Assembly: GCF_029227915.1 (NCBI RefSeq) | Contig: NC_079878.1 | Location: 10,170,001-10,234,000, forward strand | Reading direction: 5' to 3' | Length of the DNA stretch: 64,000 nucleotides | Source of the DNA: Hydractinia symbiolongicarpus | Lineage: Eukaryota; Cnidaria; Hydrozoa; Anthoathecata; Hydractiniidae | Part shown: in pieces, positions 1 to 49,100 of the stretch | Layout: the number at the start of each line of letters is the position of its first letter | How positions within the stretch are numbered: position 1 is the first letter of the stretch | Translations under genes and position numbers: made by a program | The notes under the pieces: model-generated | What the model was told of the DNA's origin: nothing | Seen by the model: only the letters and a program-made list of their open reading frames with translations | Database searches by the model: none

Positions 1-687
1 TTATGAATAAGACACTCACAACAACATGATTCAGTAAAACAAAAACGAATATTGTCCCATACAGTCTGTCTGAATTTTGCAAGATAACTAAATAATCATT
101 TAATGTAAGTGATGAAAACAGGTACCAAAAAGAGATTTCAGATGTAAGTCCTTCACCAACTATATAACACAGTAGTACATCTATATAAGTTCTCCACCGG
201 GATAATTTGTATTATTTAGCTGTTATACATATTTTAATGCTTATGCACTTACCTCTATCTTTTCTTTCTCCTTTAATTCATGTTTAAGTGTAATAACCTC
301 ATCCATTATTTTATTTTTTCATTTTCCTGCGATTTAAATGTACAAAAAAGGTTTCAATTGAGATGACGTCATCAAAAGTTATGTCAAATTGTGAATATAA
401 TAAAAAACAATGATTAATAGGCATGCCCCTTTTTTTGTTGTATAAACAATCTGGTTCAAACTATACACAGAGGACATTAAGTATGCTACAGAAATGTGCT
501 TAAGTGCGCAAAAAAGGTCAGTAAAGATAGGGTTATTATATGCAGAACATTACTCTGACGTTTTAAGGTATTTCAAATAACTGACTTACTTCTACCGCCT
601 TTTTTCTCGTGTCAGCACATCCTCAATCTCATGGAATTTAAAACAACAAAAGCATTTATCAATAAAAGTTAATAAATTTACATTTAC
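1..687. other. No recognisable gene, AT-rich
   Basis: No reading frame with recognisable homology, no RNA gene and no clear repeat is visible in this stretch. Base composition is the same AT-rich background as the other non-genic parts of the window. Confidence 0.5.
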
Positions 688-1080
688 TTGGAAAATTTTC
701 TAGCCCGTACAAATAACAATGACATACTATGGAAAACTCTAAATATAAATATATATATTTTTTATATACTATTTGAAAAGGTACATACTACTACATACTC
801 TAAAAATTTAAATTGTTTAAAGTTTTTTTTCTATGGACATACAAATCAAAACTTAGGGTGTTTGATCAAACTTTTACGGCATCAGCAATGTACAATAAAG
901 AAGCTTTAGTATAAGAATTTTCGTTATCATACTATATACAACACTCGGTGAGAAAGTTCAAATTGATTTCTGACCTTTACAGCGTTCAGTCGAGCAATTT
1001 TGTTGTCGATGAATATATTTTTCATTGACAACAGCTAGATGCAGCATGATATGGTAATTACACAGAAATTATACAAATAA
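688..1080 (+). repeat. Outlying copy of the 2.1-3.1 kb repeat unit
   Basis: This segment repeats the last unit and tail of the tandem array at 2.6-3.16 kb. Shared landmarks are CGGCATCAGCAATGTACAAT near 878, GTTGTCGATGAATAT near 1003 and AGATGCAGCAT near 1035, in the same order as at 2955, 3084 and 3116. It has diverged by substitutions and small indels. A further shared landmark, GCATTCTAAAATAAGA, lies at about 1126 and again near 3590, so the duplication probably covers more than the marked span. Confidence 0.7.
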
Positions 1081-2085
1081 AATTTTTACTTTTGTTAATT
1101 ACAAAATTACTGTACCCAATCAGTCGCATTCTAAAATAAGAGAAGGAGAAAAAAAATTTTATCGAGAGACTGAAATCTCTTTTTCCGAAACAGATTTATA
1201 CAATGCTATGCAAAATGTGAAACTTATCGCCACATTTTTAATATTATTCAAGGAAAGAAATAACTTAAAAAGTGTATTTTTCAAGAACATGAAGTGCATT
1301 ACTTCTTGGCATTAATACATGCATTATTTAAAACGCACTTACTCTCCGAACCTTCAAAACCAGAAATCCTTTTTGTTTATTTCGCCAATGAACAACACTA
1401 TTTTGTTGTTGAGTTTCCTATAAATAAGATATAAGAAAATATTTTGCATTACTGAATTTTGCTAGATGCAAAAAAATTAAAAAAAAAGAGATTCGACATT
1501 GTTTTAACTTTGACAGCTAGTCAAAAAACAACTTTTAGTTTTCTGCTTATAAACACTACCTTTACCCTGGACTGTTGATAGATGTTTTAAGGTCAAAAAA
1601 TGTTTTATATCAAATGAATCATACATATGTTCCTAAAGTCTTTCCAAGAAATCTTTTCACTGTGTAAACTTAATAAAATTCACCAATTTATGAGAAAAAA
1701 TATTGACATTGTTAGCAGATTGCCTTTGTTGTTATTGGTGGCAGCAATTACATGGCGTAGAGTGCAATTCACCACTAATTTTAATGAGTTTTTTTTAATT
1801 CTGTAGAATAAGAAAAATTTACACCTACATAAATTACTAGTCAAAAACTAAGAGTAACAAATTGCCACCTATACTATGCAATACGAACTATTTAACTTTT
1901 TTTCCATAACATTTTATGTGTTCGTAGTCACACATTGGAAAATTTGGTAACTTTACCGAACTATTATATAGCTCTAATTTTTTTCTTTGGATTTTACGTT
2001 GTAGTGTTACCAAAAAATGGGTGAAGTCTTGTAAAACATAAAATGTTTTCATACGCTTTAGGGGATTTAAAATTAGTGTGATTAA
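1081..2085. other. No recognisable gene
   Basis: AT-rich sequence between two copies of the same repeat family. I see no coding sequence or structured RNA here. Part of it may be a diverged interior of the duplicated segment. Confidence 0.4.
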
Positions 2086-2089
2086 GCTA

Positions 2090-3165
2090 ATTTTTACTAC
2101 TACATACCGTTAAAATTCGTATGTACAATAAAAAAAAGTTCAGGATAAAACTTTTGGTTATCATCCTATATACCGTAAAAGTTTGAACAAACACCAATGC
2201 TTAAAGTTTTTTTCCCACGGACATACATTTAAAAGCTTAGGGTGTTCATCAAACTTTCACGGCATCAACAATGTACAATAAAAAAGAAGACCGTTTGTTA
2301 TCATACTACATACCGTAAAAGTTCGAACAAACACCAATGCTTAAAGTTTTTTTCCCACGGACATACATTTAAAAGCTTAGGGTGTTCATCAAACTTTTAC
2401 GGCATCAACAATGTACAATAAAAAAGAAGACCTTTTGTTATCATACTACATACCGTAAAAGTTCGAACAAACACCAATGTTTAAAGTTTTTGTACCAATG
2501 ACAAACAAATAAAAACTTAGGGTGTTTGCTCAAACTTTTACGGCATCAACAATGTACAATTAAAAAAGAAGACCTTTTGTTATCATACACATACCGCAAA
2601 AACTCGAATGTATAATAAGAAAAATTCCAGTATAAGAATTTTGGTTATCATACTATATACAGTAAAAATTCGAACAAACACCAATGTTTAAAGTTTTTGT
2701 ACCAATGACAAACAAATAAAAACTTAGGGTGTTTGCTCAAACTTTTACGGCATCAACAATGTACAATTAAAAAAGAAGACCTTTTGTTATCATACACATA
2801 CCGCAAAAACTCGAATGTATAATAAGAAAAATTCCAGTATAAGAATTTTGGTTATCATACTATATACAGTAAAAATTCGAACAAACACCAATGTTTAAAG
2901 TTGTTGTCCCAATGACAAACAAATAAAAACTTAGGGTGTTCGATCAAACTTTTACGGCATCAACAATGTACAATAAAAAAGCTCTAGTATTAGACTTTTG
3001 GTTACATACTATATACCGTAAACACTCAGTGAGAAAGTTAAACTTAATGTCCTACCTTCACAGCGTTCACTTGAGTATTTTTGTTGTCGATGAATATTTT
3101 TTCATTGGCAATGGCTAGATGCAGCATAATATGGTAATTACACAAATATTATACAGATCTCAAGT
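2090..3165 (+). repeat. Tandem repeat array with 140-bp and 207-bp units
   Basis: The landmark CGGCATCAACAATGTACAAT begins at 2260, 2400, 2541, 2748 and 2955. The spacing is therefore about 140, 141, 207 and 207 bases. The shorter unit contains a block with AAAGCTTAGGGTGTTCATC. The longer unit adds about 67 bases containing AATTCCAGTATAAGAATTTTGG. The two 207-bp units are nearly identical, so the array grew recently by unequal exchange or slippage. The array has no coding capacity that I can recognise. Confidence 0.85.
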
Positions 3166-3179
3166 CTAAGCTAATTTTT

Positions 3180-3610
3180 AGCCATATTCGTATAATTGAT
3201 GACATCTTTAGCAATAATGCTAACATTGACTAAGTTGTTATTGGAGACCTTGTCAGCACTGGCCCTAAGTTTTAATCAACAACTTTAGAAATTACAGTGT
3301 TTGGTTGCTGCTTTATATTTCCATAAGGGGTGCAATTTCAGAAATTGTGCTCTCAATAAGCGAAACAAACTATGTAATAAGTTGAACCCTAATAGGTGTC
3401 GTTTTAAAAGTAACACTAAGTCATAACATTACTGCAGAAATTTGGTCCCTGTCTCATTTGGATTTCATGTTTTTTAAATTTCTCTCAATAAGGGGAATGA
3501 TGAATAATTTTAGCAAATTTTTGGTAGATATCCAAAGTTTGATTGCTTACTTGTTGTTGATTACAATATTCTTGTACCCATTCAGGCGCATTCTAAAATA
3601 AGAACAACAC
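3180..3610 (+). repeat. Dispersed repeat, copy 1 (partner at 24.4-24.76 kb)
   Basis: The segment shares an ordered series of blocks with 24395-24755: GATGACATC followed by AGCAATAATGCTAACAT, then AATCAACAACTTTAGA, AATAGGTGTCGTTTTAAAAG, and GCAGAAATTTGGTCCCTGTC. Both copies are in the same orientation and non-coding. This is consistent with an old non-autonomous transposon or its terminal part. Confidence 0.75.
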
Positions 3611-4275
3611 CTGTATTTCTTAGAATAAGTGGTTAGATGTTACATATGTGAAGGTGTATCTGATACATGTGACTTTACATTACATGGTACTTACCGCTAT
3701 CCATAATAGAATGTCATCTGAACAAATTAAGCCTATATTAGACCAAAATCAAAACTTATATCAACAAAAAGCCACATAATTGTGAGATATTCAATATGTT
3801 AAAACAATGCGTATACGTACGGAACAATGTAGGGTTCAGTTGTTGGACATGGACCTTCATAAACCCTAAATATAAAATATAACATGATATATGCTTTACC
3901 CTTTCGATACAGTAAACTTCCATGCTTCTCATGGAAGTATGATAAATTCTACAGTGCTATCCCAAATAACTTCACGTCTTAGGTCTTAGGTATTGCTTGT
4001 CATAATATTGCCAACGTACTTACTCAGGTACACGACAAGTCTTTGCCCTTTTTGCTGACCGAGCCTTGTAGCTGGTTAGTAAAAAATCTCACAATTATAA
4101 ATCGCTGGGTTCCTTATCATTATTTTATATAGACGTATTAGCAGTTGCCTAGGTTTTTAGCAAATATACATATATTTATAATAGTCGTTAGCCTGTGGCA
4201 AATTTAATGCCATACGTACTTCCAGAATCGCACTCTATAAGGTAGAGGTGGATAATATTGTGATTATAGGAGCAA
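3611..4275. other. No recognisable gene
   Basis: I see nothing coding here. The sequence leads up to the left inverted repeat of the transposon that starts near 4276. Confidence 0.4.
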
Positions 4276-6049: not shown

Positions 6050-8091
6050 TCATTTTGTAACTGGTAGGTTATCAAAAAAGGAATGGTGTCGTTCTGGAAT
6101 CAACCCTTTAGAACAAAGTTTCTTTAAATCTTCTTTTTTTTGTGATGAAATACCACAAGGAAATGGATATTTTTCCATATGCTTTTTCCTCTGAACCAAT
6201 TCTTTCTTTCTTATTTCTCTTTTTGGAGCAGAAAATGTAGCTTTGCGATACCCCTCATCATAGCTGTATTTAAAAAAGATTTGCTCAGGATTGTTGTACT
6301 CAAATTTTAATTCAACGATCTCTGACCAGTAGACTTTGTTTACTTTCCTATTTGACATACCTATTGTTTCATTTAAAGCCTTTTGTTGCTCCTTCTCTTT
6401 GGCAGTCATCTCCTCCTCTGTCTTATCAAGCATCACTGAATTGAATTCAGGAAAGGCAGATACATTTTTGTAATCAATAATATCTCTGTGGTTTAGAACT
6501 TCCAGAAAACATCGATTCTTTTTGAAAGCACATTTGATAATAGTTTCCCATTCAGCAGATGTGTAAATGGTTTTATTCCTAACCATTTGTTCAATCATGG
6601 AATGTGCATTGTCATTCTCACTATGTGAATGACCTGACACAAGATAGATTAAAGTAATGGAATTGATCCCACACGTGTACATTATATCAGATAGCATGAT
6701 AAATATCATGCGATTGTTGTTTTGTCCTCCACATCTATCGCAAAATAAGAAAAAGTCACGAATTCCATCTTCGGATCTTTTTTGGATGAACTTCTTCAAA
6801 CAAGTTGCAACTTCAACTGACCCCTTTCGACACTGTGATTCATTCCAAAAATAACAGTAAGTATCCATGTTATCTAGCTCAGTGATGGTAAAATTGTGGT
6901 TGGTTAATCTACGTGAATAGTAAAAGGAACTTGTTTGTCCGAAGGGACATAGCAAGACCTTTTGAAGATCAAAGGCTGCAGCAAGAACATCAGTATTTTC
7001 ACTGGCCATTTTTTTACAGGTTTCTTTAATCTCTCGAACACGATCTTTATCATGAAGATGGTTCTTTTGAGACTGTTCAACTTCTTTATCAATTTGTGTC
7101 TTGTCAAGATTGTTGTATGCCTCACATGTGTCGCATTTATCTTTTTTTGGCTGTTGAAACTTCAAATTAAATTTTTCCTTGAAGACACGATAATAAAACG
7201 CATAGTTTTCTAAGGTGTACCCCTTTTTGCTGCACCACTCACTGTACATCCTATACATTTCAGCTACGCTGAGTTCTTTTGGTAAATACTCATATTTGGC
7301 ATCTTTTCTCACATAATGAGACTCAACAACTTTGAAACAGCTGATGTGTTCAATTACTAGCTTCTCTCTCTCCTCCGAAGTTTTATGATTTTTGTGCCTG
7401 CCTCTGCCATCGACCAATGGAGCTCCTGTGTCTGTGACATTGTTCAAAACAGTACGAACTCTTTTCTCATTAATTCCAAGTGTGTTGAGGAACATAGTAG
7501 AGCACACTTTGACTTGTACACCATTTCTGATCAAAGTGTACAGCCTTGTGAACTCCCTATTTCTTTTCGGTTGGTAATTCTCATCTTTTGTGGACCGCTT
7601 TTTAGGAGCTTGTGTAACCAATGTCGCTAGCTGCTGAGATTGTTTACATTTGTCACCTGTGTTATAAAATTCGTGAAAGATTTTCAAACGTTCTTCATTG
7701 GTGAAGGATTTTGAACATTGGAGGCGGCACTTTTCTTGACATGGTGGTTTTATCTCCCTCTTTTTAATCTTTTTTGTTATCATTTGACCATCTTTATTAT
7801 TTTTGACTTGGTATGAAAATTCTTGTCCTGTATTTACAGCTTTCTTCCGTAAATTATTTTTCCATTCTTCTGGATTTCTTTTTCGTTTTCTAGAAGTGAG
7901 AACTGTTGGATATGAAGCTTCAGTTCCAACCTTTTGTTCTGCTAAAACTGATCTTCGTTTGACATCTTCTTTATTCCAAAGGATTGCTGCACCTTTACCC
8001 ATTTTCTCACAATTAAAGCCACTCCACTTTACTGCATTCCGTAAAACTTTTGTGATAAAAAAGCGTCCCTCCTTTTCTTTAATGGGTTCAC
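6050..8091 (-). CDS. Transposase-like protein, large C-terminal exon (DDE/RNase-H-like, tentative)
   Basis: The last exon of the transposon gene encodes about 680 residues; the longest ATG-initiated stretch is 650 residues from 8002. It starts after a clear acceptor (TTTCCTCTAG at 8092-8101). Numbered from the methionine at 8002, a KRKR basic cluster lies near residue 40, a zinc-knuckle-like KCDTCE motif near 290, FDLQKVLLCP at about 344-353 with D345, FCDRCGGQNNN around D422, and SENDNAHSMIE around D464 and E471. D345, D422 and E471 could be a DDE triad; that is inference. Proteins with the CDxCE and GGQNxN motifs are abundant, repeat-associated and mostly annotated as uncharacterised in invertebrates. 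This exon has no internal stop, but the upstream exons are damaged (separate entry), so this copy is probably not functional. I cannot name the superfamily with confidence. Confidence 0.75.
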
Positions 8092-8244
8092 CTAGAGGAA
8101 ATTAAAATTATAAATATGATAAAAATACAATCAGTTCTCATGCAATATAAGAAAAAAAAATTAGGTTAATTATTTTTCCTCCTTAATTTTGGAAAGAACA
8201 GGGAAAGGAGAAAACTCATTTATAATATCCAAACAAGATTTTAC

Positions 8245-13569: not shown

Positions 13570-13847
13570 TTCTGCAATATATTTTACACTTTGGATTTTG
13601 AAACTGCTATCCGTGGTCATCATGTTTACCAGTGAAAATGGACGCCTGAAATAAACTTAAAACTGAAATGTGCAGTTGATACAAGAAATGAAGCTACAGA
13701 ATACGATGAAAATGCAATCGGCGTTTATTTATGGGGCAAAGAAGGAACAGTAGATGGGCTTGTTGGTCATCTTCCATTGGAGTTATCAAAACTCATAAAA
13801 CAATTTCTAAACGCAGACCATTATAACGTCGTGACAGCAACCGTGAT
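13570..13847 (+). pseudogene. HIRAN-like domain ORF, 5' part, interrupted by a transposon
   Basis: The frame encodes FETAIRGHHVYQ, then TPEINLKLKCAVDTRNEA, YDENAIGVYLWG and VGHLPLELSKLIKQF. This matches the HIRAN-like pattern (invariant DxxAIxV and VGHxP) of small proteins common in cnidarian repeats. A TGA stop lies in frame at 13633. The frame is cut at 13847, where the ISL2EU element begins. It resumes in the same codon at 18388-18390 when the element and one copy of its AT duplication are removed. The host ORF is probably itself part of an older transposon, since terminal-type repeats follow its stop codon. Confidence 0.65.
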
Positions 13848-13910
13848 AGACCTTTTCATAAATTATTGCGCAATAGTATGCCTCGTATTGAAAACGAGAC
13901 AAGCGGTGCT
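13848..13910 (+). repeat. Left TIR of the ISL2EU element
   Basis: Starts AGACCTTTTCATAAAT and matches the inverted right end with scattered differences out to GCGGTGCT. It includes an internal imperfect palindrome, CTCGTATTGAAAACGAG. The transposase ATG follows 20 bases after its inner edge. Confidence 0.9.
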
Positions 13911-13929
13911 AAACTTTTTTGTAAACAAA

Positions 13930-15453
13930 ATGTCGGAGGGGAATACGAAGAAAAAACATAAAAGATCTCAAGGAAAGCAATGTGCTGCCTGGGGATGCAA
14001 TAATCGTAGCCTGGTTGAATTTGAAAATGAATTAATATCTTCAACCATAAGTTTTTTTAAATTTCCGAAAGATTCAGGAACAAGGAAAGTGTGGTGCAGC
14101 CGAATTAAACGTATTGATGGACAAGACAACTTTAGAGTAACCAGCCATACTGTGCTGTGCGAAAAACACTTTGCAAAAAGTGATATAATAAAAGCCCCTG
14201 GAGGGACACGCCGCAGATTGAGAGATGGAGCCAAACCTACACTATTTGAAAATGTGGAGGATTTTAGCAAAAGAAAAGCTCCTGTTAACAGACCATCTCC
14301 TCGAAAAAAATTTAGAGAAACATCCACTCTAATTCCTGATGAGACTGATATAGGGGATGATTCCACTGAATTTGTAGCTGAGCCAGACTTTATTATGAGG
14401 GAGGAACCAGACGCAATTTTTTTGTCAAAAGAAGTTGAAAAGCTTACAGAAGAAAAAAAGAGTTTGTGTAAAGAGATAGAAATGTTGAAACACAAACTCA
14501 TGGAAAAAATTTCTACAGTTAAAATAAAATTTGTCGAAAATGTTTTGTCATCTGATGCATCATGTAAACATTACACTGGCATACCAAACATCGAAGTGTT
14601 TAAAGAATTATTAATTTTTTTAAACCCAGGACAAAATGGAGAAAATGTTATTCTTTACAATAATCAAGATGTCAAAGGTTTTAGTGATAGAGGTAGACCA
14701 CGTACGCTGTCCCCTCTTGAAAGTTTTTTATTGACCCTTGTTAGAATGCGAAGAAACTTTGATGTTTGCCATTTATCATATTTGTTTGAAGTGTCTGAAG
14801 GTACTGTAACAAATACTTTTCAAACGTGGGTAAATTATATGTATGTTAAGCTCGGAACAATATGCATTTGGCCTTCCCGCAGTCAAGTTCAAGAAAATAT
14901 GCCAGCTAGTATGAAAGAAAGATTTGCAAACGTACGATGCATTATAGATTGTGTAGAGTTTAAAATTGCAGTGCCTTCATCTTTATATTTACACAAAATG
15001 ATGTACTCAGAATACAAAAGTCACACCACCGTTAAAGTACTTGTTGGCATTGCTCCTGGTGGAGGTTTCACATTTATATCGAGTGCCTACCCCGGTAGCA
15101 TCTCAGATAAAGATATTGTTGTCAAAAGTGGTTTATTATTTCCAGAACTTTGGCAGGCAGGAGATGCTATTATGGCTGATCGAGGTTTTTTGATAGAGGA
15201 CTATGTAAAACCTCTTGGTGTGGAATTAATTATGCCATCATTTTTGAAAGGACGCGAGCAATTTTCAGAGTCTGAAGTAGTCAAAAGTCAACAAATAGCA
15301 TCAGAAAGAATTCATGTGGAAAGAATGATTCAACGACTCAAATGTTTTCGAATATTCGATCGAGTTATTCCAGTAAACATGTTGAACTCCCTGAATCAAA
15401 TTATTTCGGTATGTGGTATTCTCACAAATTTTCAAGACCCTATTTTAAAGTAA
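13930..15453 (+). CDS. THAP-domain DDE transposase (ISL2EU type)
   Basis: The ATG at 13930 is the likely start: the open frame extends upstream to 13777 but there it is TIR and host sequence. The protein has 507 residues. A THAP zinc finger with C2CH ligands C18, C23, C77 and H80 opens the protein, followed by the RDGAKPTLF stretch that stands for the usual AVPTIF box. A coiled-coil segment (about 150-190) comes next, then a helix-turn-helix (SPLESFLLTLVRMRR, about 261-300) and a DDE_Tnp_4-type catalytic domain. The candidate triad is D340 (IIDCVEF), D417 (MADRGF) and E464 (HVERMIQR). It would cut the element's ends and join them at AT sites. The frame is intact, intronless and 92 bases from the convergent nuclease gene. 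Confidence 0.92.
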   Translation: MSEGNTKKKHKRSQGKQCAAWGCNNRSLVEFENELISSTISFFKFPKDSGTRKVWCSRIKRIDGQDNFRVTSHTVLCEKHFAKSDIIKAPGGTRRRLRDGAKPTLFENVEDFSKRKAPVNRPSPRKKFRETSTLIPDETDIGDDSTEFVAEPDFIMREEPDAIFLSKEVEKLTEEKKSLCKEIEMLKHKLMEKISTVKIKFVENVLSSDASCKHYTGIPNIEVFKELLIFLNPGQNGENVILYNNQDVKGFSDRGRPRTLSPLESFLLTLVRMRRNFDVCHLSYLFEVSEGTVTNTFQTWVNYMYVKLGTICIWPSRSQVQENMPASMKERFANVRCIIDCVEFKIAVPSSLYLHKMMYSEYKSHTTVKVLVGIAPGGGFTFISSAYPGSISDKDIVVKSGLLFPELWQAGDAIMADRGFLIEDYVKPLGVELIMPSFLKGREQFSESEVVKSQQIASERIHVERMIQRLKCFRIFDRVIPVNMLNSLNQIISVCGILTNFQDPILK

Positions 15454-15545: not shown

Positions 15546-18032
15546 TTACATCAATTTGTCCTGATCTTTCTCTATGATTTGTGGTAGCATATATGTAAAG
15601 TAAAACCGTAAAATGTTTTTTTGTAGTTCTTGCCTGTATTTCATGTCAAATGGCACTCTGTCGATTACAAGACCTTTTGAGGTATAAAAAATAAAATCAC
15701 ACCATGTTTGACATGTGATAGCCAATTGCATTTGTATCTGATTGTAATATGTGTGATCTTTATTTATTTTAATATTTTCTGTATTGCTGTCATAGAGAAT
15801 GCAAGGGTTTTTCGCCACAGAACACACTAACTTTGGATCTATGTCTCTGTACAAGTGACTGCATTTTACCTCAAGGATGCCATAAAAGCCATTGCAGTTA
15901 ACTCTTCCATCTGGTGTAGCTCCAAGCACATAATTATTTTGATCTATTGTTAAACCATTATTTTCCACAACAACTTGGAAACCTGCAATCTTCATGTATC
16001 TTTCATAATGTGCAATGGCTATGGGTTCATGATATCGTCCATACTCAAATTTAACTTTTAAAAACTGTTGTGGTACACAACCATGCACTATATTTCGTGC
16101 TAAAGTTTTTAAGCCTCTTTCTGTTTTGGGTCCACTGTTTCCAAGTTTGTTGCACAGTGAGGCAGTAAATCTGTTTTCTCTATACTTGAACCAATTTGGA
16201 TTGTTAGCTTGGTCTCGTGTATTTTTTTCGATGCTGATTGCATCAGCTGCCTGCTCTTTTAAATTTTGTAGTAACATTAGCTTTTTTTGCTCAACTAAAT
16301 GAATTTCATTGGCATAATTATCGATAACATTGTCATTTTGTTTAAAAAAGTGGTCAGTAAAATCTGAAAACAAAACCCGGTCGCCCTTGTTTCCATCCTC
16401 CTTAATGTTACAGTAAACTTTAAAATCTGGTGGCATTAAGGCACATTGGTAGCTCAGAATAGATCCAAATGGCACCGGCCCAAATTGTGTTTGCGTGTAT
16501 AGCTGAGGATTTGTGTTCATAATTTTTGGTGCATGTGCTTTGCCATGAAAATTAGTGACAATGTCAAGCAAAATTCTCAAACTGTCACTACGTGTGTCTC
16601 TGTTATGTTCAGATCTTGGCTCGTACAATGAATATGTAATTCCTTTTTTAGAAGCTCCTTCAGTATTTGTGGCATTCCTTTTTGAATCTGGTGATTTAAT
16701 GGTTAGTTCTGAGACAGGTGGCTTTTGCATATATTCTCTTGCCTGCGGTACATTCCAAACACATGGCATTGATGTGCATGCTTTAGGCTCTGGAATCATA
16801 CGCAATTCATCAACTACCCATTTAGCTAACAGTTTCATAACGGCATAGCAATGCGAACATGTGCCGGTTTTTCCGGCTGGACATTGACAATGTGCAAATA
16901 CAACTTCACCATTAATTTTGTTAAGTACAATAAACACCCATCTATTCATTTTTTTTAAACTTGCAGCAGCTATACCTTTTATACAAAATATATTATTGTC
17001 TTGTTTGACATATATTGTGCTGGTATCAATGTATTTTTCTTCTACAAATTGTTCACCTCTTGCAAAATGTTTTTTAATTGTTTTAGCCTTTTCAACAAAT
17101 GTATTGTTTACTTTTGTGTGATAGTCTGTCATTTGCGTAACGGTAAAGACAGGTACACCTTGCAAAGACTTTGACCAGCCAGTGAGGTCCAATGGATTTT
17201 TCATATCATTTTGTATTGCTGAGGGTGCTTCAGGTAGTGAGCCTTCTTTCCAAAGCGGTTTTAAAATTTTTCCTAGCTCCATTGCTTTTTTCCTAATCCA
17301 AAGCTTATCAGGTGTTGGATCAACAATCTTCTGATTGTTTTTATTCTCAAAGTAGTTCCATACTCTAAAGTGAAGAAAAATACATTGAATACAAATGTGT
17401 TGCTTTTTATGCATACAAAATCTTGAATTTAGGAAAATATTTTTTTAGAATATATATTATATATAAATAGCTACATACACATATGATGGTAAAAAAGCAT
17501 GTAAAATAATTTTCTATGAAAATATTATAAAATCCAAGTTTATTGAGGTTGCTCTGACTTCTGTTGTGAAATTGTAATTACCAACATTCCACTTTTCTTA
17601 TGTTTCTAGATTTGTGTTTGCAATATAATAAAGCCATAATTCTGTTCAGCTTCTCTCTACAATTTAATATCACTTACCTAACTTGGGCATCTTTTAGTGT
17701 GTGAATACCACGTAGAGTGTCTCCTCTAAATACTAACCACTGTTTTAAATGTTCCATAGGATATTTTGAAAGCATTGTAACATTTAATTTTACATATGGG
17801 TTGTCAATATCATCTTCTGTGAGAGTAATGGCATCCATATCTACATAAATTTAAAAAACCTATATATATACATTTTTTATAGTTTTCGTTTTCCTAACAA
17901 TCACTTTTTTCCATTAAAACGTAAATTTCTCTTGCTAGCTAGCTTAAAAGTTTAAGGTTACTTACCAACCATGTTGTTTTTGAAATAATCATCAAAATCT
18001 GGTATCTCCAACTCGTGTTTTTTAAAATCCAT
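15546..18032 (-). CDS. YqaJ-type nuclease with SAP-like and SWIM domains, ISL2EU accessory protein
   Basis: Three exons, 17966-18032, 17678-17840 and 15546-17364, join with GT..AG ends to a 682-residue frame with no lesions. The ATG is at 18032. Residues about 40-75 (KYPMEHLKQWLVFRGDTLRG) resemble a SAP DNA-binding helix pair. A SWIM zinc finger follows, CQCPAGKTGTCSH at about 236-248. The C-terminal third is a YqaJ/lambda-exonuclease-type domain with D562 in GATPDG, E575 and K577 in LEVKC, and a QIQMQL helix. Proteins of this kind are the known second ORF of ISL2EU elements. The nuclease presumably processes DNA during transposition, but its exact role is not established. The second intron cuts an arginine codon after its second base. 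Confidence 0.9.
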
Positions 18033-35878: not shown

Positions 35879-36230
35879 TATTCGAATCGTGAAGTTCATA
35901 CATAGCAATCCTGTATCCTGGAATTTTCAGAATTTTTCAGATCGAGATCAGTTATAAAAATATCCAGGTAAAGTTTTAACTATTGTTTTAAAATATATAC
36001 TATATATATGTAAAAAAATATTTTTTATTTTTTATCTATAAAGTTGTATTTTACGTTAATTACAATAATAATTGAGAATTAGGATACTTATGATGTGTTT
36101 ATATATATAGCCCCTTTGTTCTCCGTTTTTAAAGTCTACTTCAAATTTCAGAATCTTTCAGGCTAATGATGGAAATCTTCAAGTCGCAGGGCTTTTTATT
36201 TAAAATTTTTCCCCGGGCAATAAGCTTATT

Positions 36231-36410
36231 TACGATGGCCCACAAGGGTCACAGTGCGAGAATTTTTTATACACTGCGCGAGAATTCTAAAATGTGCGAG
36301 AATTTTCCACTACACTGCACGAGAGCTTATAAACTATGCGAGAATTTTTTTGTACACTGCGCGAGAATATTCAACAATGCGCGAGAATTTCCAAATATTA
36401 CGAGAAAATT
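36231..36410 (+). repeat. Left TIR and subterminal repeats, motif TGCGCGAGAATT
   Basis: The first 60 bases equal the inverted right end. About eight variants of (C/G)TG(C)GCGAGAATT then follow at intervals of 20-30 bases up to about 36405. Confidence 0.9.
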
Positions 36411-36553
36411 TATATAGACTGGACGAAAAAATATTTTAAATATCGCAGGCCTACATATCATCGATCTGGTCTTTAAAATTAATTTTCTTTCGCGCTTTTT
36501 TTCTCTTTTAATGGAAACAGCATGGACTTTCGAAAGCATAGCTCGAAGTCATA

Positions 36554-37876
36554 ATGCCTATACCAACGCACTTGCCATGCATTTCAGTGAGTGTTAACAG
36601 TGATCGTGATTCTTTGATATCGCAATACTTCTCTCAAGACATGACAAATCTTGAAATAATATCTTTTCTTGCAATTCATCACAGTATTTACATAAGTTTG
36701 TCAACATTGAAAAGAAGTTTAAGAAAAATGGGCTTGAGACGACGCATTGGTCAGTACGAGTCCAGAGAGGAAGTGATTCAAGCGATTTCAGGTGAATTGA
36801 CTGAAAGTGGAAAGTCACTAGGTATTATAGCATGAGTATACGAACAGGACTTAAATTTTTTAATGTCTTGTTCCCAAGCATTTTCTACCAGGCGTGAAAA
36901 CTGTTATTACAGTTGTTTACTTTTTTTAGGCTACAGAAAGCTGTGGAAGGCCATAAAGGCATACGGAATACCAGCCAGAAAATCATCTGTCATGGAAATT
37001 TTAAGAGAGTTGGATCCAGTAGGAGTTGAAAGTCGCGCAAAGAAACGGTTGAGGCGCCGAATCTACAGCGTACCTGGGCCAGATTTTTTATGGCACTTGG
37101 ACGGGCATGACAAACTGAAGCCCTACGGTTTCAGTATACACGGTTGTATTGACGGGTTTTCCCGCCGATTAATTTGGCTCGAAGTTGGACCCACAAATAA
37201 ACGACCAGAAGTTGTTGCTAACTATTTCTTAGAAGCGGTAACCCAGTTGAACAGACTACCTACTAGAATAAGAAGCGATGACGGGAACGAGAACAGCATA
37301 ATCGAGGCCATTCAGATATGCATGAGGGCTGATCACACGGATGAGTATGCTGGTCTCGGCAGTTTCATCGTGGGATCCTCTCCGAACAATCAAAGGATTG
37401 AATGTTTTTGGTCGCAGTTGGCCAAGGATAGACCAATGTGGTGGAGAGAGTTTTTTGCAGAGCTTTCTGGGATGGGCTACTTGGATGGTGGCAATGTATT
37501 GATTGCTCAATGCGCTCGTTTTTGTTTCATGCACTTGATTCGAAAAGATTTAGATGATATGGCGGTGCGCTGGAATCAACATATCATTGCACCGAGCAGA
37601 GGTTCAATCCTACCACGCGGACGTCCAGATACCTTACATTTTATACCAGAGCTATACAATAGCAAATCATACAAGAAATTTGTTGACATTAGTGACATCA
37701 GCGAATTCAACGATCCTACATTTGCTATTGCTGTTGCAGACAACGAGCCTGAGTTTATTGAATTTGCAGACACAGTCCTTGCAATGAAAGGACACCCAAA
37801 TGGACGTCCAAGTACAATTCAGCAAGCCTTAGAAATATACTTTCTTTTACTTGATGCTGTAGCAGAATTTATGTAG
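36554..37876 (+). CDS. Integrase-like (rve-type) DDE transposase, two exons
   Basis: Exons 36554-36821 and 36930-37876 join (G|GTATTA..TTTTTTTAG|GC) to a 404-residue frame without lesions. The N-terminal part (about 15-90) has a helix-turn-helix-like stretch, TNLEIISFLAIHHSIYISLS then KRSLRKMGLRRR. Residues about 91-135 include a YRKLWKAIKAYGI segment. The catalytic domain has D147 (WHLDGHDK), D206 (RSDDGNEN) and E247 (NNQRIECFW), a D-D(40)E spacing like retroviral integrases. PRGRPDTLHFIPE and HPNGRPSTIQQAL follow. Proteins of this type are annotated in fish and cnidarians as integrase core domain proteins. It presumably moves this element. Its frame is intact while the neighbouring HECT gene is broken. 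Confidence 0.9.
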
Positions 37877-38284
37877 ATAACAATGTAACAAGTTGGTGTT
37901 GAAAAATACAGATGTAATCTTGAAATCTTCAATCTTGAAACAAAATGTTTAATACATTTGAAACAGCTGTATTAAAAGTTAAAATAAAAAACAAAATAGA
38001 AGAATGGTCCATTATCAATGATAAAAAGCACTGATTCAGCTTCATTAAAAATAAAATACAGAACAAAATAGAGGAAAGAAAATCTGTGTCATTCAGAATT
38101 AAAACACAACAAAAACAGAAGACAAAACAAAAGACACCGCCCCCGTGTCAACGGCTATGAAAAACACAATTCAAGCATTGTCGTGGCCAATATTTGCAAA
38201 GCTGAATGATGTTTTAAAAATATGCTAATTCAAAAAACAATAGAATACCACTGATAAAATATACTTATCAAACAACAAGTATTT

Positions 38285-40672
38285 TTAAACAATGCCAAAG
38301 CCCGGCGAATTAATAATATCTTCGGTAATGTTTCTAGAAAATTTTGACCCAGTATATCTTGGTACAACCGGAAAAGTGAGCTGATACTGACATGTCGAAA
38401 CACTGATTCTTCCCTTTCCAGGTATATGATCAAAAAGAACTTTGATTTTTTCGTTATTAGGTACAACAGTAGAGCCTGTGAGAAACATCATAACATCGCC
38501 TAGTGAAAGTTTTTTCTCTGATTTAGCACTCTCTTCTGTTTTTTCATTCTCGACATCAGATACGGTGAAAGTTTTAACAGTGATAGACTTACCGTGACCC
38601 AATTCATCGAGGAAGTTTTTCCAATTGTAAAAAATATCTTCCTCTAGGGCAGCTTTAACACTTTCGTTCGAATATGTTACATCAAAACAGGACTTGATAA
38701 CCTCAGGATCAACAAGATCTTGGTTGTAAGTGAATAACTTCATGGCTTCCAAAGGATGCTTTCTAAGCAGATCAAGAACACCAAAAGCTTCAAGTCCCTT
38801 TAAAAATTGCTGAATTTCCTCTAATTGCATAGATATTATGATGTGGTGAGCAACCTTTCGCAATAAATCAGTTTTGTCTGCTAGTTTCGGACATGGTTTG
38901 TTGTAACCATAGTCAAATCGTTCATGGAAACGTTGAACTTGAGACTGAAATTCTGCTTCTTTATCACAATTTCTGATATTTTCAAGTTTAATTTTGAGGT
39001 CAATGCTGGGTATTTCATCAATGCAACATAAACAGTCTTTATGCCCTGAAATAGATTAAATAATCTTAGGCATAAACAAGAAGTCAATATCAAAATTTGC
39101 CAAATAATTCACTGAAACACATGCAAACAAGGCCTTTTATAAAGCTTCAATACATCAACACTAATGTAAACCAAACGCCACCTTGGAAATCACATGTTAG
39201 TTAATCCTTAGACTCACCGACCCTGAACCTTTGAAACCATATCCCCCCCCTCCCCCCAAACAATGTCGAAACGTACATATTTCATGAAGCAGTAAAATGA
39301 CATGAAGGCAAAAATAGGTTTTCGTTTTTAAAGAACTCACCCACTATAAAGCCACTGAGACCAGCACTGAAGTATGGTGGATTGCAACCATGTAATAAAG
39401 ATAATGACACAAATTTTCCAAAAAACATATATTGATCTTCTGTTAACTTTTGCAGATCATGGATGAAAAATTCATTATTTTGAAGGCCATATGTAAGTTT
39501 ACCAATTGTGCTTTGATAAAATAGCGATATTAACTCACGAGTAGGACCACCTGTGTCTACACCAGCTTCCTTACCACCCATACTGGTGAATTCTACCTTG
39601 AAAGGAGACAATTCAGCATCTGAAAAAAACACCTCCATTTTTTGCATAACATCATTAAATACACATCTTCTTCTGATATTAAAAGTTACTTTACTTTTTT
39701 TCATGAACTTCGCTGACAAAACATTCAACTCCTTCTCCAAGTTTAATTTTGGTGAATTACTAGATAAAGCTTTAATACGTTGTTCTCGCAAATTTTCGAT
39801 AGATCTGTCAGTAATATTTTCATTGGATGGTTCTTCGGATGTTGATCCACCTTCAGAGTCAAATGAATTCTTTTGACTATCTTTCTGCAATGACTGTTCA
39901 AACTCCTTATCTTGCTTACATCTGATGCAAAACCTGAAGTAAGTGCCCGAGCATGTGTCACAAATTTTTCTTTTCAAAGCAGGACCAGCAGCAGTAATAG
40001 GCTCAGAATCAGAGAGTGACATACAATCATCATTGTAATCATAATCAAAATAATTTTTAAGCTCTGGACCATTATCATTTAAACTAGTTCTCAAAACAAA
40101 CCATGTTTTTGATGGAAACAAACCCCTTTCTTTAAGATAATCTGGAATACTGTCCCGTAAGTTGACTGTAGTACCGGTAACATCTTCCAGTTTTGCAGTC
40201 ACTTCTAGTCGGTCTTCATTGAAACAGTTCTTTCCACACACACCAAAATAAACATCCAGACTTTTTGTCAATAAATGTTTGAAAGTTTGATTCTCCTGAT
40301 TTAAAGCAATGAAACGGCTTCCTCCTCCCTCTGCTTGTTTCACATTTATCCAATTTCCTCCAACCTCTCTCATTCACCTTACTTGGATTCTAATATCCTT
40401 TTTATTTGTTGAAGCATTGCCAGCAGCACGAACACTTTTTTTGGTTATCTTTGTCAACAAAGTGTTCAATCTGGTAGTGATGTTTCCATGTCTCTTCTGT
40501 TCGTTCTTGATATCACTGGATTCTCCATTACAAGCTTGGTCTTGGTCATGTTTTGACAAAATACTTCTTTCAATTTCTTCTTTCACCTCTTTCCTGACTT
40601 CTTCATTTTGAATTTGGAAAACAAACAGAACAACTTTGCTCTCACCCCGAGATACCTAAATAAATCCTCCAT
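38285..40672 (-). pseudogene. HECT-domain (G2E3-like) ubiquitin-ligase gene carried by the transposon, damaged
   Basis: Exon 1 spans 39341-40672 and exon 2 38285-39045, joined G|GTGAGT..TATTTCAG|GG in frame (FIVG-HKDCL). The expected product is about 697 residues. The N-terminus (from ATG at 40672) is charged. A GGGSRF segment, a small CDTC..FCIRC zinc-like motif and a HECT domain follow. The HECT domain begins near NIRRRCVFNDVM and includes GGKEAGVDTGGPTREL. The C-lobe ends VSTCQYQLTFPV, whose Cys is the expected thioester residue. Two lesions: a TGA at about 40374-40376 where a Trp fits, and a one-base loss near 40650 in a G run. A HECT ligase would pass ubiquitin to a target; a target linked to transposition is speculation. 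The gene converges with the transposase. Confidence 0.85.
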
Positions 40673-40789
40673 AAATGGTATGGGAGGCGCTGTGGTGGAG
40701 TTCAACCTCGGTTCCAGGATACTGCAGATAAACTTCAGACCAAGGTCTGTAAAATAGCATAAATTTGATTTTCATAAGAAACTTTCTAA

Positions 40790-40898
40790 CACAAATATAA
40801 ATTCTCGCGCACAGTTTCGAAATTCTCGCGCACAACAGTTAGAATTCTCGCGCAGTGTATAAAAAATTCTCGCACTGTGACCCTTGTGGGCCATCGTA
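40790..40898 (-). repeat. Right TIR and subterminal repeats of the HECT transposon
   Basis: Complement of the left end. Four copies of AATTCTCGCGCA-type motifs precede the terminal GGGCCATCGTA. Confidence 0.9.
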
Positions 40899-40929
40899 CT
40901 TATTCACAAGCCTCTATGCAATTCCGTAC

Positions 40930-42600: not shown

Positions 42601-42637
42601 ATTCTAACTGTGAATACACTCACTTCTAGTGATCATT

Positions 42638-43483
42638 ATGGCATACGAGGGATACACCACATTTAAAGTAAATGTGAACGAAGGCGTTGCTTGGGTGACG
42701 TTTGATTTCCCACCTGTCAATGTGCAAGGGATGCCCATGTTGAAAGATCTGGATAGTCTATCATCGGAACTCGAAAAAGACGGCAGCGTCAAGGTTGTAG
42801 TCTTCCAATCTGCACATCCAGATATATTTGTATGTCATGCAGATATTGATATGCTGTGTGATCTTAAAGCTGAGGAAGTGAAGAAAGACAAAGAATCATT
42901 GCTTTACTTACAGAAAGTCTTACATCGTGTTTCTACTTTACCACAAGCAACCATAGCGAAAGTTGAAGGTATGGCTCGAGGTGGAGGTCACGAGTTTATG
43001 TTAGCATGTGATATGAGGTTTGCCGCGCGTGGGAAAGCTGTCTTTATGCAAATGGAAGTAGGCATGGGTATTGTACCTTGTGGTGGTGGAACCCAAAGAT
43101 TGGCTCGTCAAGTGGGGTTAGGAAGAGCTTTGGAAATAGTATTGGGTGCGCATGACTTCGATGCTGACATTGCAGAAAAGTATGGAACAATTAATCGAGC
43201 TTTGAATGCAGACGAGATTGGTCCTTTTGTCGAAGAGTTAGCAAACCGAATTGCAAAGTTTCCAGCTGCATCAATCACTGCATGCAAGCGGTGTGTTTAC
43301 GCAGCAGTCGACACAACTATAGAGGAAGGTCTCGTTGAGGAGGTGTACCAATTGGGACAAGCTTTAGCACGTACTCCTGCGACGAAACGATTTGCGTATG
43401 GCAAAGAGCAGGGAATACAAAATGACCTAGAAACCCAAAAAAATTGGGACAAAGGGGTTATGGATATTCAAGGTATTCAATAA
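42638..43483 (+). CDS. Enoyl-CoA hydratase/isomerase family protein, intronless
   Basis: A 281-residue frame starts at ATG 42638, after an in-frame TGA 27 bases upstream, and ends at TAA 43481. It covers the whole crotonase domain: VAWVTFDFPPVNV near the start, HADIDML (about 70), GMARGGGHEFMLACD with the oxyanion-hole glycines and Glu (about 113), then MEVGMGIVPCGGGTQRLAR with the second Glu. Members add water to or isomerise acyl-CoA substrates. The exact substrate cannot be told. There is no PTS1 and no clear presequence, so it is probably cytosolic. The lack of introns and the bacterial-like form (DFPPVNV, PCGGGTQRL) suggest bacterial transfer or a retrocopy. The gene looks intact and converges on the acyl-CoA oxidase gene 2.7 kb away. 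Confidence 0.9.
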   Translation: MAYEGYTTFKVNVNEGVAWVTFDFPPVNVQGMPMLKDLDSLSSELEKDGSVKVVVFQSAHPDIFVCHADIDMLCDLKAEEVKKDKESLLYLQKVLHRVSTLPQATIAKVEGMARGGGHEFMLACDMRFAARGKAVFMQMEVGMGIVPCGGGTQRLARQVGLGRALEIVLGAHDFDADIAEKYGTINRALNADEIGPFVEELANRIAKFPAASITACKRCVYAAVDTTIEEGLVEEVYQLGQALARTPATKRFAYGKEQGIQNDLETQKNWDKGVMDIQGIQ

Positions 43484-46174: not shown

Positions 46175-49100
46175 TTATAATTTTGATTTTAATTCTCCCT
46201 GATTGTCATATTCGTTGTACTTAATCCAATCCAGAGCAATTGGAGCTGACAACATGTCGTCTGTCAGCGCGAAAGCGTCCGTAAGCGCAAGCGATTGAGG
46301 GGCAATCTCTTTGCACAATTCGCGAGCAACTTCTGGAACTTTTTTAGCCGCCCACGCAGGCAGAAGTCGCTCACCCACAAACCATCCTAGATTTCGCTCT
46401 AAAATTGTGATCACGTATAGATGATGCAGCTTTAATAAAATATCTCGTAATGACGGATCTGCCGAAAGCCGAGTTTTAGTGCACACTTCGCTCACCAACC
46501 GTTCACCATACGCATGCGCAGCATGTTGAACAAGATCACTGGAGTCGTACATCCATGTTTCGAACAGTTTTGCTCTTCCAGCTTTTGCCATCTTCGTGCC
46601 CAGTTCTAAATACAACAAGTCTTCTCTTTTTTTCAACAAGCCATGCAAGTAATCAATGCTGTTAAGGTTTGGTCGCGATAAAATACCAGTGCTAAATTTC
46701 GACGATAACCAAATTGTCATAAGATCAGACTTCGTGTATGATGTCAACCGTTCCTTAGCAACCTTTTGCATCAACACGCAGTTGTCTCCTTCCGCAGTCA
46801 TCGAAGCATGGGAGGACGTGATAACAGTTCCTAAACGATTGACAGACAAGAATCCTTGTCCACCGGTTCTTTCGCGACAGATAGTTCCAACATTTTCCAC
46901 ATTCCATCCACACAGAGGCTTAATGACGCAACACATTGTGACAACATCAGCATGTTCGGATCCATCAGCAGCTTGGAACGCCCACCTATCTTTTACATAA
47001 TCCAATCCGATGTTCAAACAGTAAGTTTCTGCTAATAGGGGTATCAAAGCACGCTGCTGAAGTTGGTAGCTCAATATCGGTCTGTCTGATTTACCCTTTG
47101 GACCTACAGTCAATCTTGTTGCCGAGTACCTAAAATCAAGTTGTATAGAAATGTAAAGCTCTTACATCTTTTTATAAGCTTACAAACTCTGTGAAGTCCA
47201 TGAAAATTTAGCACATTGAAGATTAATTGCAGCCTAAACTTTGAAAGCTAAAAATTTTTACCCTGATACGCAGAAAGAAACCTTTGGCCAACACTGTTAG
47301 ACATACTTTAGGCATATTTAGATTATAATACCCATATATGTCTGTCTGTCACGCGAAATGGTACCGCAAGTAGCGAGACGCACGCAATAAAGTGTAAAAA
47401 GGACGAACGGGCCGTGAATTTTTTTCACGGCCAGTGACTAGTATATATAGAATAAAGCACCTACCGTAAGGCAACTGCTAATGCAGTTTTGGCACCGCCT
47501 TGCGACATGGCAGCTATGCACAATCGTCCGGAAAGCAATTGATCAGCTACCGTTAAAAAACGACCACGGTTGCTTTTGATATCAGTAGTGAAGGTTCCAT
47601 CCTCCGCCACATCAGAAAATTTATTCAATAAATTTTCTCTTGGCACTCGAACATTATCAAAACTGAGTTTGGCGTTGTCCACGCCATTTACACCCATCTT
47701 GTATCCCATATCTTCCACTGTAATTCCAGGCAATGGTTTTAAGTTATCGTCTCTGATTTGAACAAGTATACCATGTATGCCATGATCAACGTCTAAAACA
47801 CGAATAAACAGGCATAAAAACTTACAAACTGTAAGTTCCTGCTTTACAAAAATGCTGACGTGCCACATTCTTTCCATTAGTAAAAAAGGTTATAAATATC
47901 CCTAACCATTATTTTATGCATTTAATCTTTTAGAAATTGAGCCCATCAGAATGTATACGCTTTTTTATAAAAATATATTTTATAATCAACTTTTGTCTGA
48001 CAACTTAATTTTGCGAAAAAGCTATCTTATAAAACACCATTTCCTTTCCCAACTGAAGTTATCTCAGGTTGCCTAGTATATTTCAATTAAACTGCCAGAG
48101 TCTAAATTAAAAACAAAGAAGCTGAATGAAACAATTTCGGTTGAGACCTACCGCCTATTTTTAATTGTGCGAACACCACACAGTGTTTTGCATGGATGGC
48201 TCCATTAGTGATCCAATATTTCTGCGCCAGTGGTGTAGGTGTGTTTATGATGAATTCTTTCGTGGCTTTGTCATACACAGCTGTGGTTTCCATTTCCACC
48301 GCATTGTTGCCATAACTACCAGAATATAAAAACATACCAGTAAAATAAAACAAAAAAGAATAAAAAAGCCATCGGTTTAAATTGACAGTTTTTTTTATAT
48401 CGGTCAATGTTTATCAGTTTGCACGAAAGAATTACTTGCGTTTTCAGGATCAGTCAAGTAAAATTAGAAATTTTCATAATTAGTTTAATTACTACGATTA
48501 TTTACCCTCCTTAGATTCTAATGCTGCTGATTGATGACGGTCCTGAAAAGAGGGCCCTAGGGCATTTAAACCTTCAATTTGAGCTACAGAGGGCGTGTAA
48601 TTACAACAGCCGCTCAAATAATATCAATCCTATTCTCAGGCTGAATGTTAAGCATAAAGGATAGATTTACACTTAATAGTCTTTGGCATGGCTTGGTCAC
48701 AGAGTTAACGCTCTACCACAAAACCACCAGTCGGTAGCTAGTTTTTTAACATATTTTTGCCTGAATTTTGCCTGTATATATCAGTTTGCGCAAATACCTC
48801 TGTACGCAACACCTGTACCAAGTGCCAAGAATATAAAGTTTATCACCCCAAAATAGAGCTACAAATCCCAATTCCGTAAAAAAAAACTGGGACGAACGTG
48901 ATGCGTGACGTTACAAAGTGTGGAAAGCGCAATTTTATGAAGTGACTGGTCTAATAAAGTAGCAAATTTGTAAATCGTTTATAGTTTTCACAAATATAGC
49001 TACTCGCAATTCCATCTTATTTTATGCTAAATATGCCAAGTTGATCAGCTTTCGGTTGTACATGTCGCTGCACGTTTAACAAATTGCTTAGTTTTCATAA

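Follow-up and report, generated by a model that had tools for sequence, protein, structure and literature searches.

A 64,000-nucleotide stretch of the Hydractinia symbiolongicarpus genome (the window; C4:10170001-10234000 of a 481-Mb genome) was analyzed and found to contain, at positions 36231-40898, a 4,668-bp DNA transposon with two convergent genes: a transposase gene on the plus strand and a gene for a predicted HECT-type ubiquitin ligase (E3) on the minus strand (Table 1). Identical 60-bp terminal inverted repeats (TIRs) and a 6-bp target site duplication (TSD), CTTATT, had been proposed for this element by the original prediction, and both were confirmed by the sequence. These ends are not a product of chance, as the first 20 nt of the element were detected twice in the window (≤3 mismatches) versus 0.00 times expected. 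Subterminal repeats of the TGCGCGAGAATT type were also identified at seven sites in the window (≤1 mismatch; 0.14 expected), every one of them within the element. The transposase of 404 aa was found to be intact, with no internal stop, and its D147, D206, and E247 were located exactly as they had been numbered; the residues matching these three are invariant across an alignment of 23 sequences. When the frame at 36836-37873 was scanned with Pfam, it matched the PF24764 "Integrase core domain" (E 1.8e-33). The description of this protein as a retroviral-type integrase is better replaced by IS3EU-type; no HHCC N-terminal motif was found in the translated sequence, in which a single Cys lies ahead of D147.

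Table 1. Features of the element and its borders (window positions)
Feature	Position	Strand	Basis
TSD CTTATT, left	36225..36230		sequence and flank comparison
Left TIR, starts TACGATGGCCCACAAGG	36231..36290	+	60 nt, 100% complementary to right end; 13 pairs in genome
Left subterminal repeats, TGCGCGAGAATT type	36275..36389	+	4 of the window's 7 matches, ≤1 mismatch
Transposase exon 1	36554..36821	+	GT-AG junction; protein length (404 aa) equals relative P0006
Transposase intron	36822..36929	+	missing from annotated protein P0001, 98% identical
Transposase exon 2, PF24764 integrase core, D147/D206/E247 of 404-aa protein	36930..37876	+	Pfam; residues in translation
HECT gene last exon: C-terminal half of HECT domain, catalytic-type Cys (STC)	38285..39045	-	homology to P0121/P0122/P0123
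HECT gene intron, GT-AG, 295 bp	39046..39340	-	both splice sites in all 8 of 13 copies holding the stretch; absent from P0121
HECT gene 5' part: N-terminal region, CxxC..CxxC motif, first half of HECT domain	39341..40604	-	tblastn with P0121
In-frame TGA in HECT frame of window copy	40374..40376	-	P0121 has Trp there
Right subterminal repeats, TGCGCGAGAATT type	40800..40854	-	3 of the window's 7 matches
Right TIR	40839..40898	-	60 nt, 100% complementary to left arm
TSD CTTATT, right	40899..40904		sequence and flank comparison

The minus-strand gene was examined for its relationship to known HECT proteins. Its frames at 39341-40373 and 38285-39045, when joined across the intron, end in ...STCQYQLTFP..., which agrees with the predicted STCxxxLxxP terminus; what had gone unmentioned is the in-frame TGA, which falls where P0121 (680 aa), a relative 98% identical to the window HECT protein, has Trp, and because of which the HECT gene of this copy is probably damaged. 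P0121 reads continuously across the intron position and probably originates from a spliced transcript, as its 2,225-bp contig is too short for the intron. The Pfam HECT model matched neither the window protein nor P0121. Nonetheless, the gene is classed as HECT by homology based on two findings: (i) the relative P0122 (38% identical over 65% of the query) matched PF00632 (E 5.6e-8, 33.2 bits); and (ii) a profile of six relatives, including P0121, matched solved HECT domains in the PDB, with that of ITCH the best (E 1.3e-10) and with 48 of the 48 matches listed (E up to 1) being HECT E3s. From the more distant families described below, the family D protein in locus L032 passed the Pfam HECT cut-off (27.1 bits versus 23.9), while the proteins in L030 and L033 scored below it (18.5 bits). 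The C-lobe Thr-Cys and the GGP..E and EEDI motifs were invariant in all six aligned relatives, and the invariant C-lobe Cys that precedes a hydrophobic/Pro stretch is taken here to be the catalytic Cys of HECT domains. Ligase activity is predicted and is considered probable. The cellular HECT E3s ITCH, RSP5, WWP1, and E6AP have in common with the transposon proteins the HECT domain by profile, the GGP..E motif, and the C-terminal catalytic-type Cys, but differ in their N-terminal regions, as Pfam reported neither WW nor C2 nor any further N-terminal domain of host type in the proteins scanned. Two HECT protein searches, with about 8,000 candidates scored in each, retrieved three and five proteins, and no relatives were found in scans of viral contigs and prokaryote genome contigs. 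A structure prediction for P0121 from a four-sequence alignment had a mean predicted local distance difference test (pLDDT) score of 33.9, and the result was not used.

The genome was next searched with the TIR, and 13 copies with both ends were identified (family A). Transposase and HECT sequences were found in all 13, arranged tail to tail, so that no two-ended copy lacks HECT sequence; a lack of the HECT gene in other copies is what the original prediction had named as refuting it. At least 97% of every exon of both genes was present in eight copies, and internal deletions were detected in the other five. Exact 6-bp duplications flank 12 of the copies, no two of them alike; the 13th has one end that has ceased to match over its first 4 bases. 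Based on a difference of only 0.8-1.6% from the window copy, family A is judged to have moved recently. An intact transposase was present in five of the 13. In addition, L009 was found to carry at 391-3986, immediately before the full element, another left end plus transposase whose left flank is identical; this arrangement could have arisen by tandem duplication of part of the element or be an artefact of the assembly.

The pairing of the two genes was found to extend well beyond family A. A genome search with P0121 generated 73 matches (65 of 173 candidates scored) that clustered into 41 loci, 13 being family A. Twenty stretches covering 19 HECT loci were then fetched, each surrounding a diverged HECT match (26-48% identity) that had been chosen solely for its similarity to HECT. 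In 18 of these loci, a relative of the window transposase was identified beside the HECT match in the DNA fetched, with that of the 19th located 5.5 kb away, and the gene pairs were convergent in all 19. An automatic search for bounded elements, with TA[CT]G ends and 6-bp duplications as the criteria, delimited one element around both genes at 12 loci (nine with exact duplications and three with one mismatch). A further locus was bounded by an exact duplication, GGAAGC, in which a family D copy is nested in a family E terminal repeat (L029 3280 to L030 2738), bringing the loci with TIRs and 6-bp duplications to 13 of 19 (10 exact, three with one mismatch). At the remaining six, no bounded pair was detected, and several had an end motif of the expected type on one side. 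A bounded candidate at L027, with 2 mismatches out of 14 and a further one within its duplication, was discarded as spurious. Included in the 12 is L042, where the HECT match is 31% identical and N-terminal only (P0121 residues 23-326), and where a separate tblastn found no HECT. Nine further HECT loci were assessed from the listed PF24764 matches, with a transposase convergent at three, divergent at one (C12:20613457), and not near at five. Overall, a convergent transposase was present at no fewer than 35 of the 41 HECT loci. The pairing of an integrase-type transposase with a HECT E3 is thus seen in the window copy, in all two-ended copies of its family, and in several diverged families, a wider range than the original prediction had claimed. 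Capture of a single host HECT gene by this one copy, which had been named as a finding that would overturn the proposal, is ruled out by the pairing at the 19 diverged HECT loci.

We also investigated the association across the genome with profile searches for PF24764 (151 matches; 150 of 705 candidates scored and 150 matches listed) and PF00632 (141 matches; 129 of 198 candidates scored; 93 loci after clustering). Among the 150 listed PF24764 matches, at least 55 had a HECT match from either search (PF00632 or P0121) within 5 kb, six of these being family A, whereas random placement gave a mean of 0.44 and a maximum of 4 in 500 trials. From the opposite direction, at least 37 of the 93 PF00632 loci had a listed PF24764 match within 5 kb, a count that is more independent since P0121 is the transposon's own HECT. 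The orientation of these 37 was convergent in 15, same strand with HECT upstream in 12, same strand with HECT downstream in nine, and divergent in one; the nine downstream matches are short (about 50 profile positions, 34-35 bits). As a control, none of 150 listed PF13359 matches had a HECT match within 6 kb (start to start), and one had a match within 10 kb. These data bear on the possibility that host HECT genes lie near transposons by chance or through repeat crowding. The genome is rich in transposons, and 56 of the 93 PF00632 loci, which probably include host HECT genes, had no PF24764 match near among the matches listed; however, TIRs and duplications enclose both genes, and neither the random placements nor the PF13359 control approached the observed number. 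For the bounded copies, chance neighborhood is already refuted, and as a general explanation its probability is negligible. HECT genes are common in PF24764 elements, though to call them universal would go beyond the evidence.

Gene order was found to vary among the PF24764 families. In the top-scoring family (264.9 bits; e.g., G000:C2:11957143-11959918 and C4:21333310-21336087), the order differs from that of the window family in that HECT is upstream on the same strand, with a gap of about 1,366 bp in nine of 12 such pairs. In another family (e.g., G000:C10:11155470, C6:11019920, and C13:21582474), a short HECT fragment lies downstream on the same strand, with a gap of 3,221-3,222 bp in six of nine such pairs. 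Three PF24764 matches at G000:C10:7939548, 7943292, and 7947036 lie on one strand at a spacing of exactly 3,744 bp and have the look of a tandem array.

Classification of the element was performed by comparison of its ends, duplication, and transposase with known superfamilies. As described in PMC10045372, IS3EU elements terminate in TA..TA, are usually flanked by 6-bp duplications, and encode an integrase-like DDE transposase free of the HHCC domain. All four features compared were found in the window element: (i) a 6-bp TSD, exact in 12 of 13 family A copies; (ii) TA..TA termini, which are TACGATGG..CCATCGTA in family A and TACGG and TATGG in families D and E; (iii) the integrase-like DDE core; and (iv) the lack of an HHCC N-terminal domain. 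By sequence, the element therefore fits the IS3EU superfamily. It differs from the elements of PMC10045372 in its HECT gene, as neither HECT nor ubiquitin is mentioned in the main text of that paper. A close parallel was found in rust fungi, where TET+ IS3EU families are described with TAYGG..CCRTA ends and with alpha-kinase and TET/JBP genes (PMC12730594). These fungal elements resemble the window element in their 6-bp TSD and in an accessory enzyme gene opposite to the transposase; their ends are matched by Hydractinia families D and E, while family A differs from TAYGG at the fifth base. The accessory enzymes are distinct, being an alpha-kinase and a TET/JBP dioxygenase in the fungi versus a HECT-type protein in Hydractinia, and the main text of PMC12730594 does not mention HECT or ubiquitin. 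Ginger1 and Ginger2/TDD also have an integrase-like transposase in a TIR element but, as given in PMC10045372, have 4- to 5-bp TSDs and, in Ginger1, an HHCC domain. The 6-bp TSD and absent HHCC of the window element set it apart from these groups. The accessory genes of Ginger elements encode proteases and are not known to encode E3 ligases. A further lead, and a lead only, to HECT-type sequence in repetitive DNA comes from Cottus fish, in which an unclassified repeat matched G2E3 by blastx; the passage on it in PMC5638112 describes neither a transposase nor ends. The original prediction had been aware of no DNA transposon superfamily described as carrying a HECT E3; in the literature searched, none was indeed described, whereas Repbase and Dfam lie beyond that search, and our guess is that there is about a one-third chance of some entry having it. 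Relative to the literature searched, HECT is an accessory gene new to this known transposon superfamily, and in the H. symbiolongicarpus genome it is maintained by selection.

Substitution patterns and phylogenetic groupings of the two genes were compared. In the comparisons between families (D-E, A-B, and A-G), the proportion of synonymous differences (pS) was 0.75-0.83, near saturation, and the proportion of nonsynonymous differences (pN) was 0.27-0.31 for the transposase and 0.37-0.39 for HECT. With pN this far below pS, both genes look to have been kept by selection over long times. The transposases are about 40% identical between families, and this divergence together with the saturated silent sites indicates that the pairing is old. 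Transposase and HECT yielded the same family groups wherever both could be compared (L042 left out), and the trees of both genes united D and E (100% support) and set them off from A, B, C, and G, the order of which the trees do not settle. A similar CxxC..CxxC zinc ribbon was also found at the start of both proteins, transposase and HECT, in families D and E (positions 3784 and 7336 in L032, 2240 and 6016 in L033, 2261 and 6022 in L036, and 4144 and 7919 in L040), for which the Pfam zinc-ribbon matches were below the cut-off. This likeness suggests that the two proteins may have a partner in common, for example the transposon end, or may be partners of each other.

Overall, these results make it probable that the element is a young, multi-copy cut-and-paste transposon of the IS3EU type and belongs to one of several families in which an integrase-fold transposase is paired with a HECT-type ligase gene; its identity and the pairing itself we regard as highly probable. 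Several findings nonetheless weigh on the other side: (i) the HECT frame is fully open in only one of the 13 family A copies (L009), the transposase of which is broken, and is broken in the other 12; (ii) a single-ended 14th copy, L017, has a transposase but no HECT match in the 9.9 kb fetched; (iii) no transposase was found among the matches listed at five of the 41 HECT loci (C3:10445606, C3:20125476, C14:12059022, C6:25478261, and C9:28253227); (iv) 95 of the 150 listed PF24764 matches, which include fragments, have no HECT match within 5 kb, so that many PF24764 elements may lack HECT or manage without it; (v) pN/pS within family A is about 0.65-0.67, mostly reflecting decay after insertion; and (vi) the zinc-ribbon parallel was not found in family A, whose HECT protein has only an internal CxxC..CxxC motif. 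The within-family ratios (about 0.4-0.8, with one HECT part at 1.26 on 61 differences summed over pairs) are as expected for copies that decay once inserted. The broken frames and the PF24764 matches without HECT nearby would also suit a passenger, i.e., a host HECT gene captured once and carried unused; however, the pairing spans several families, and between them HECT is under long-term protein constraint rather than neutral, such that a passenger is very improbable. The HECT protein likely does something that the element needs, as the pairing is old, is linked to only one of the two types of transposase compared, and has been maintained by selection.

How the HECT protein may serve the element was considered in terms of where it would act. 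In the working model, the transposase would bind the TIR and subterminal repeats, excise the element, and insert it into the target in the manner of integrase-fold enzymes, with the 6-bp stagger of joining shown by the duplications. The HECT protein would be recruited to the same complex and would ubiquitinate the transposase, or chromatin or repair proteins at the complex, with the outcome that the spent complex is dismantled or host silencing is lifted. The zinc ribbons that are alike on both proteins of families D and E favor a role for HECT at the transposition complex over one on host proteins in other places, and we put this role forward tentatively, at somewhat under an even chance. Nearly as likely is counter-defence, in which HECT would work at a distance from the ends and ubiquitinate host factors for silencing or repair, such as small-RNA, chromatin, or DNA-damage proteins, comparable to the TET/JBP enzymes of fungal transposons that are thought to undo methylation. 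The TET/JBP and alpha-kinase genes of fungal IS3EU elements, as presented in PMC12730594, do offer a precedent for accessory enzymes that are probably directed at the host, and the faster change of HECT than of transposase between families (pN 0.37-0.39 versus 0.27-0.31) could reflect an arms race; against this, the similar zinc ribbons favor a partner common to both proteins. A third possibility, that HECT marks the transposase for destruction and thereby keeps both the number of copies and the damage to the host low, would accord with the modest count of 13 two-ended copies in family A. This dose control is rather improbable, as a self-limiting gene is easily lost when deleted copies outrun the others, yet HECT has been kept across families whose transposases are about 40% identical. 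Beyond action at the complex, it is conceivable, though on balance doubtful, that HECT is a working and near-standard part of the machinery of an animal transposon superfamily, recruited to the ends along with the transposase and ubiquitinating the complex or the surrounding chromatin, and that such elements have seeded HECT genes in animal genomes.

The pairing suggests that elements carrying HECT may draw on the host ubiquitin system in order to move or to persist in the host genome. Transposons that carry a ligase, if confirmed as such, would open a direct way to study how host protein control is exploited or escaped by DNA transposons, and would offer an origin for animal HECT gene families that can be tested. 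Annotators should also be cautious, as a HECT gene of this type may belong to a transposon.

The remainder of the window was found to include other mobile-element and host-type frames. At 13636-15450 is a frame with THAP and DDE_Tnp_4 transposase matches, in which HIRAN is weakly matched at the N-terminus; a YqaJ exonuclease frame lies convergent to it at 15549-17444, and the pair is presumably an ISL2EU-like element. A 683-aa open frame at 6053-8101 matched DUF7869. Host-type genes were detected near the HECT-bearing element, including an enoyl-CoA hydratase frame (42614-43480) and acyl-CoA oxidase-type frames (46178-47889).

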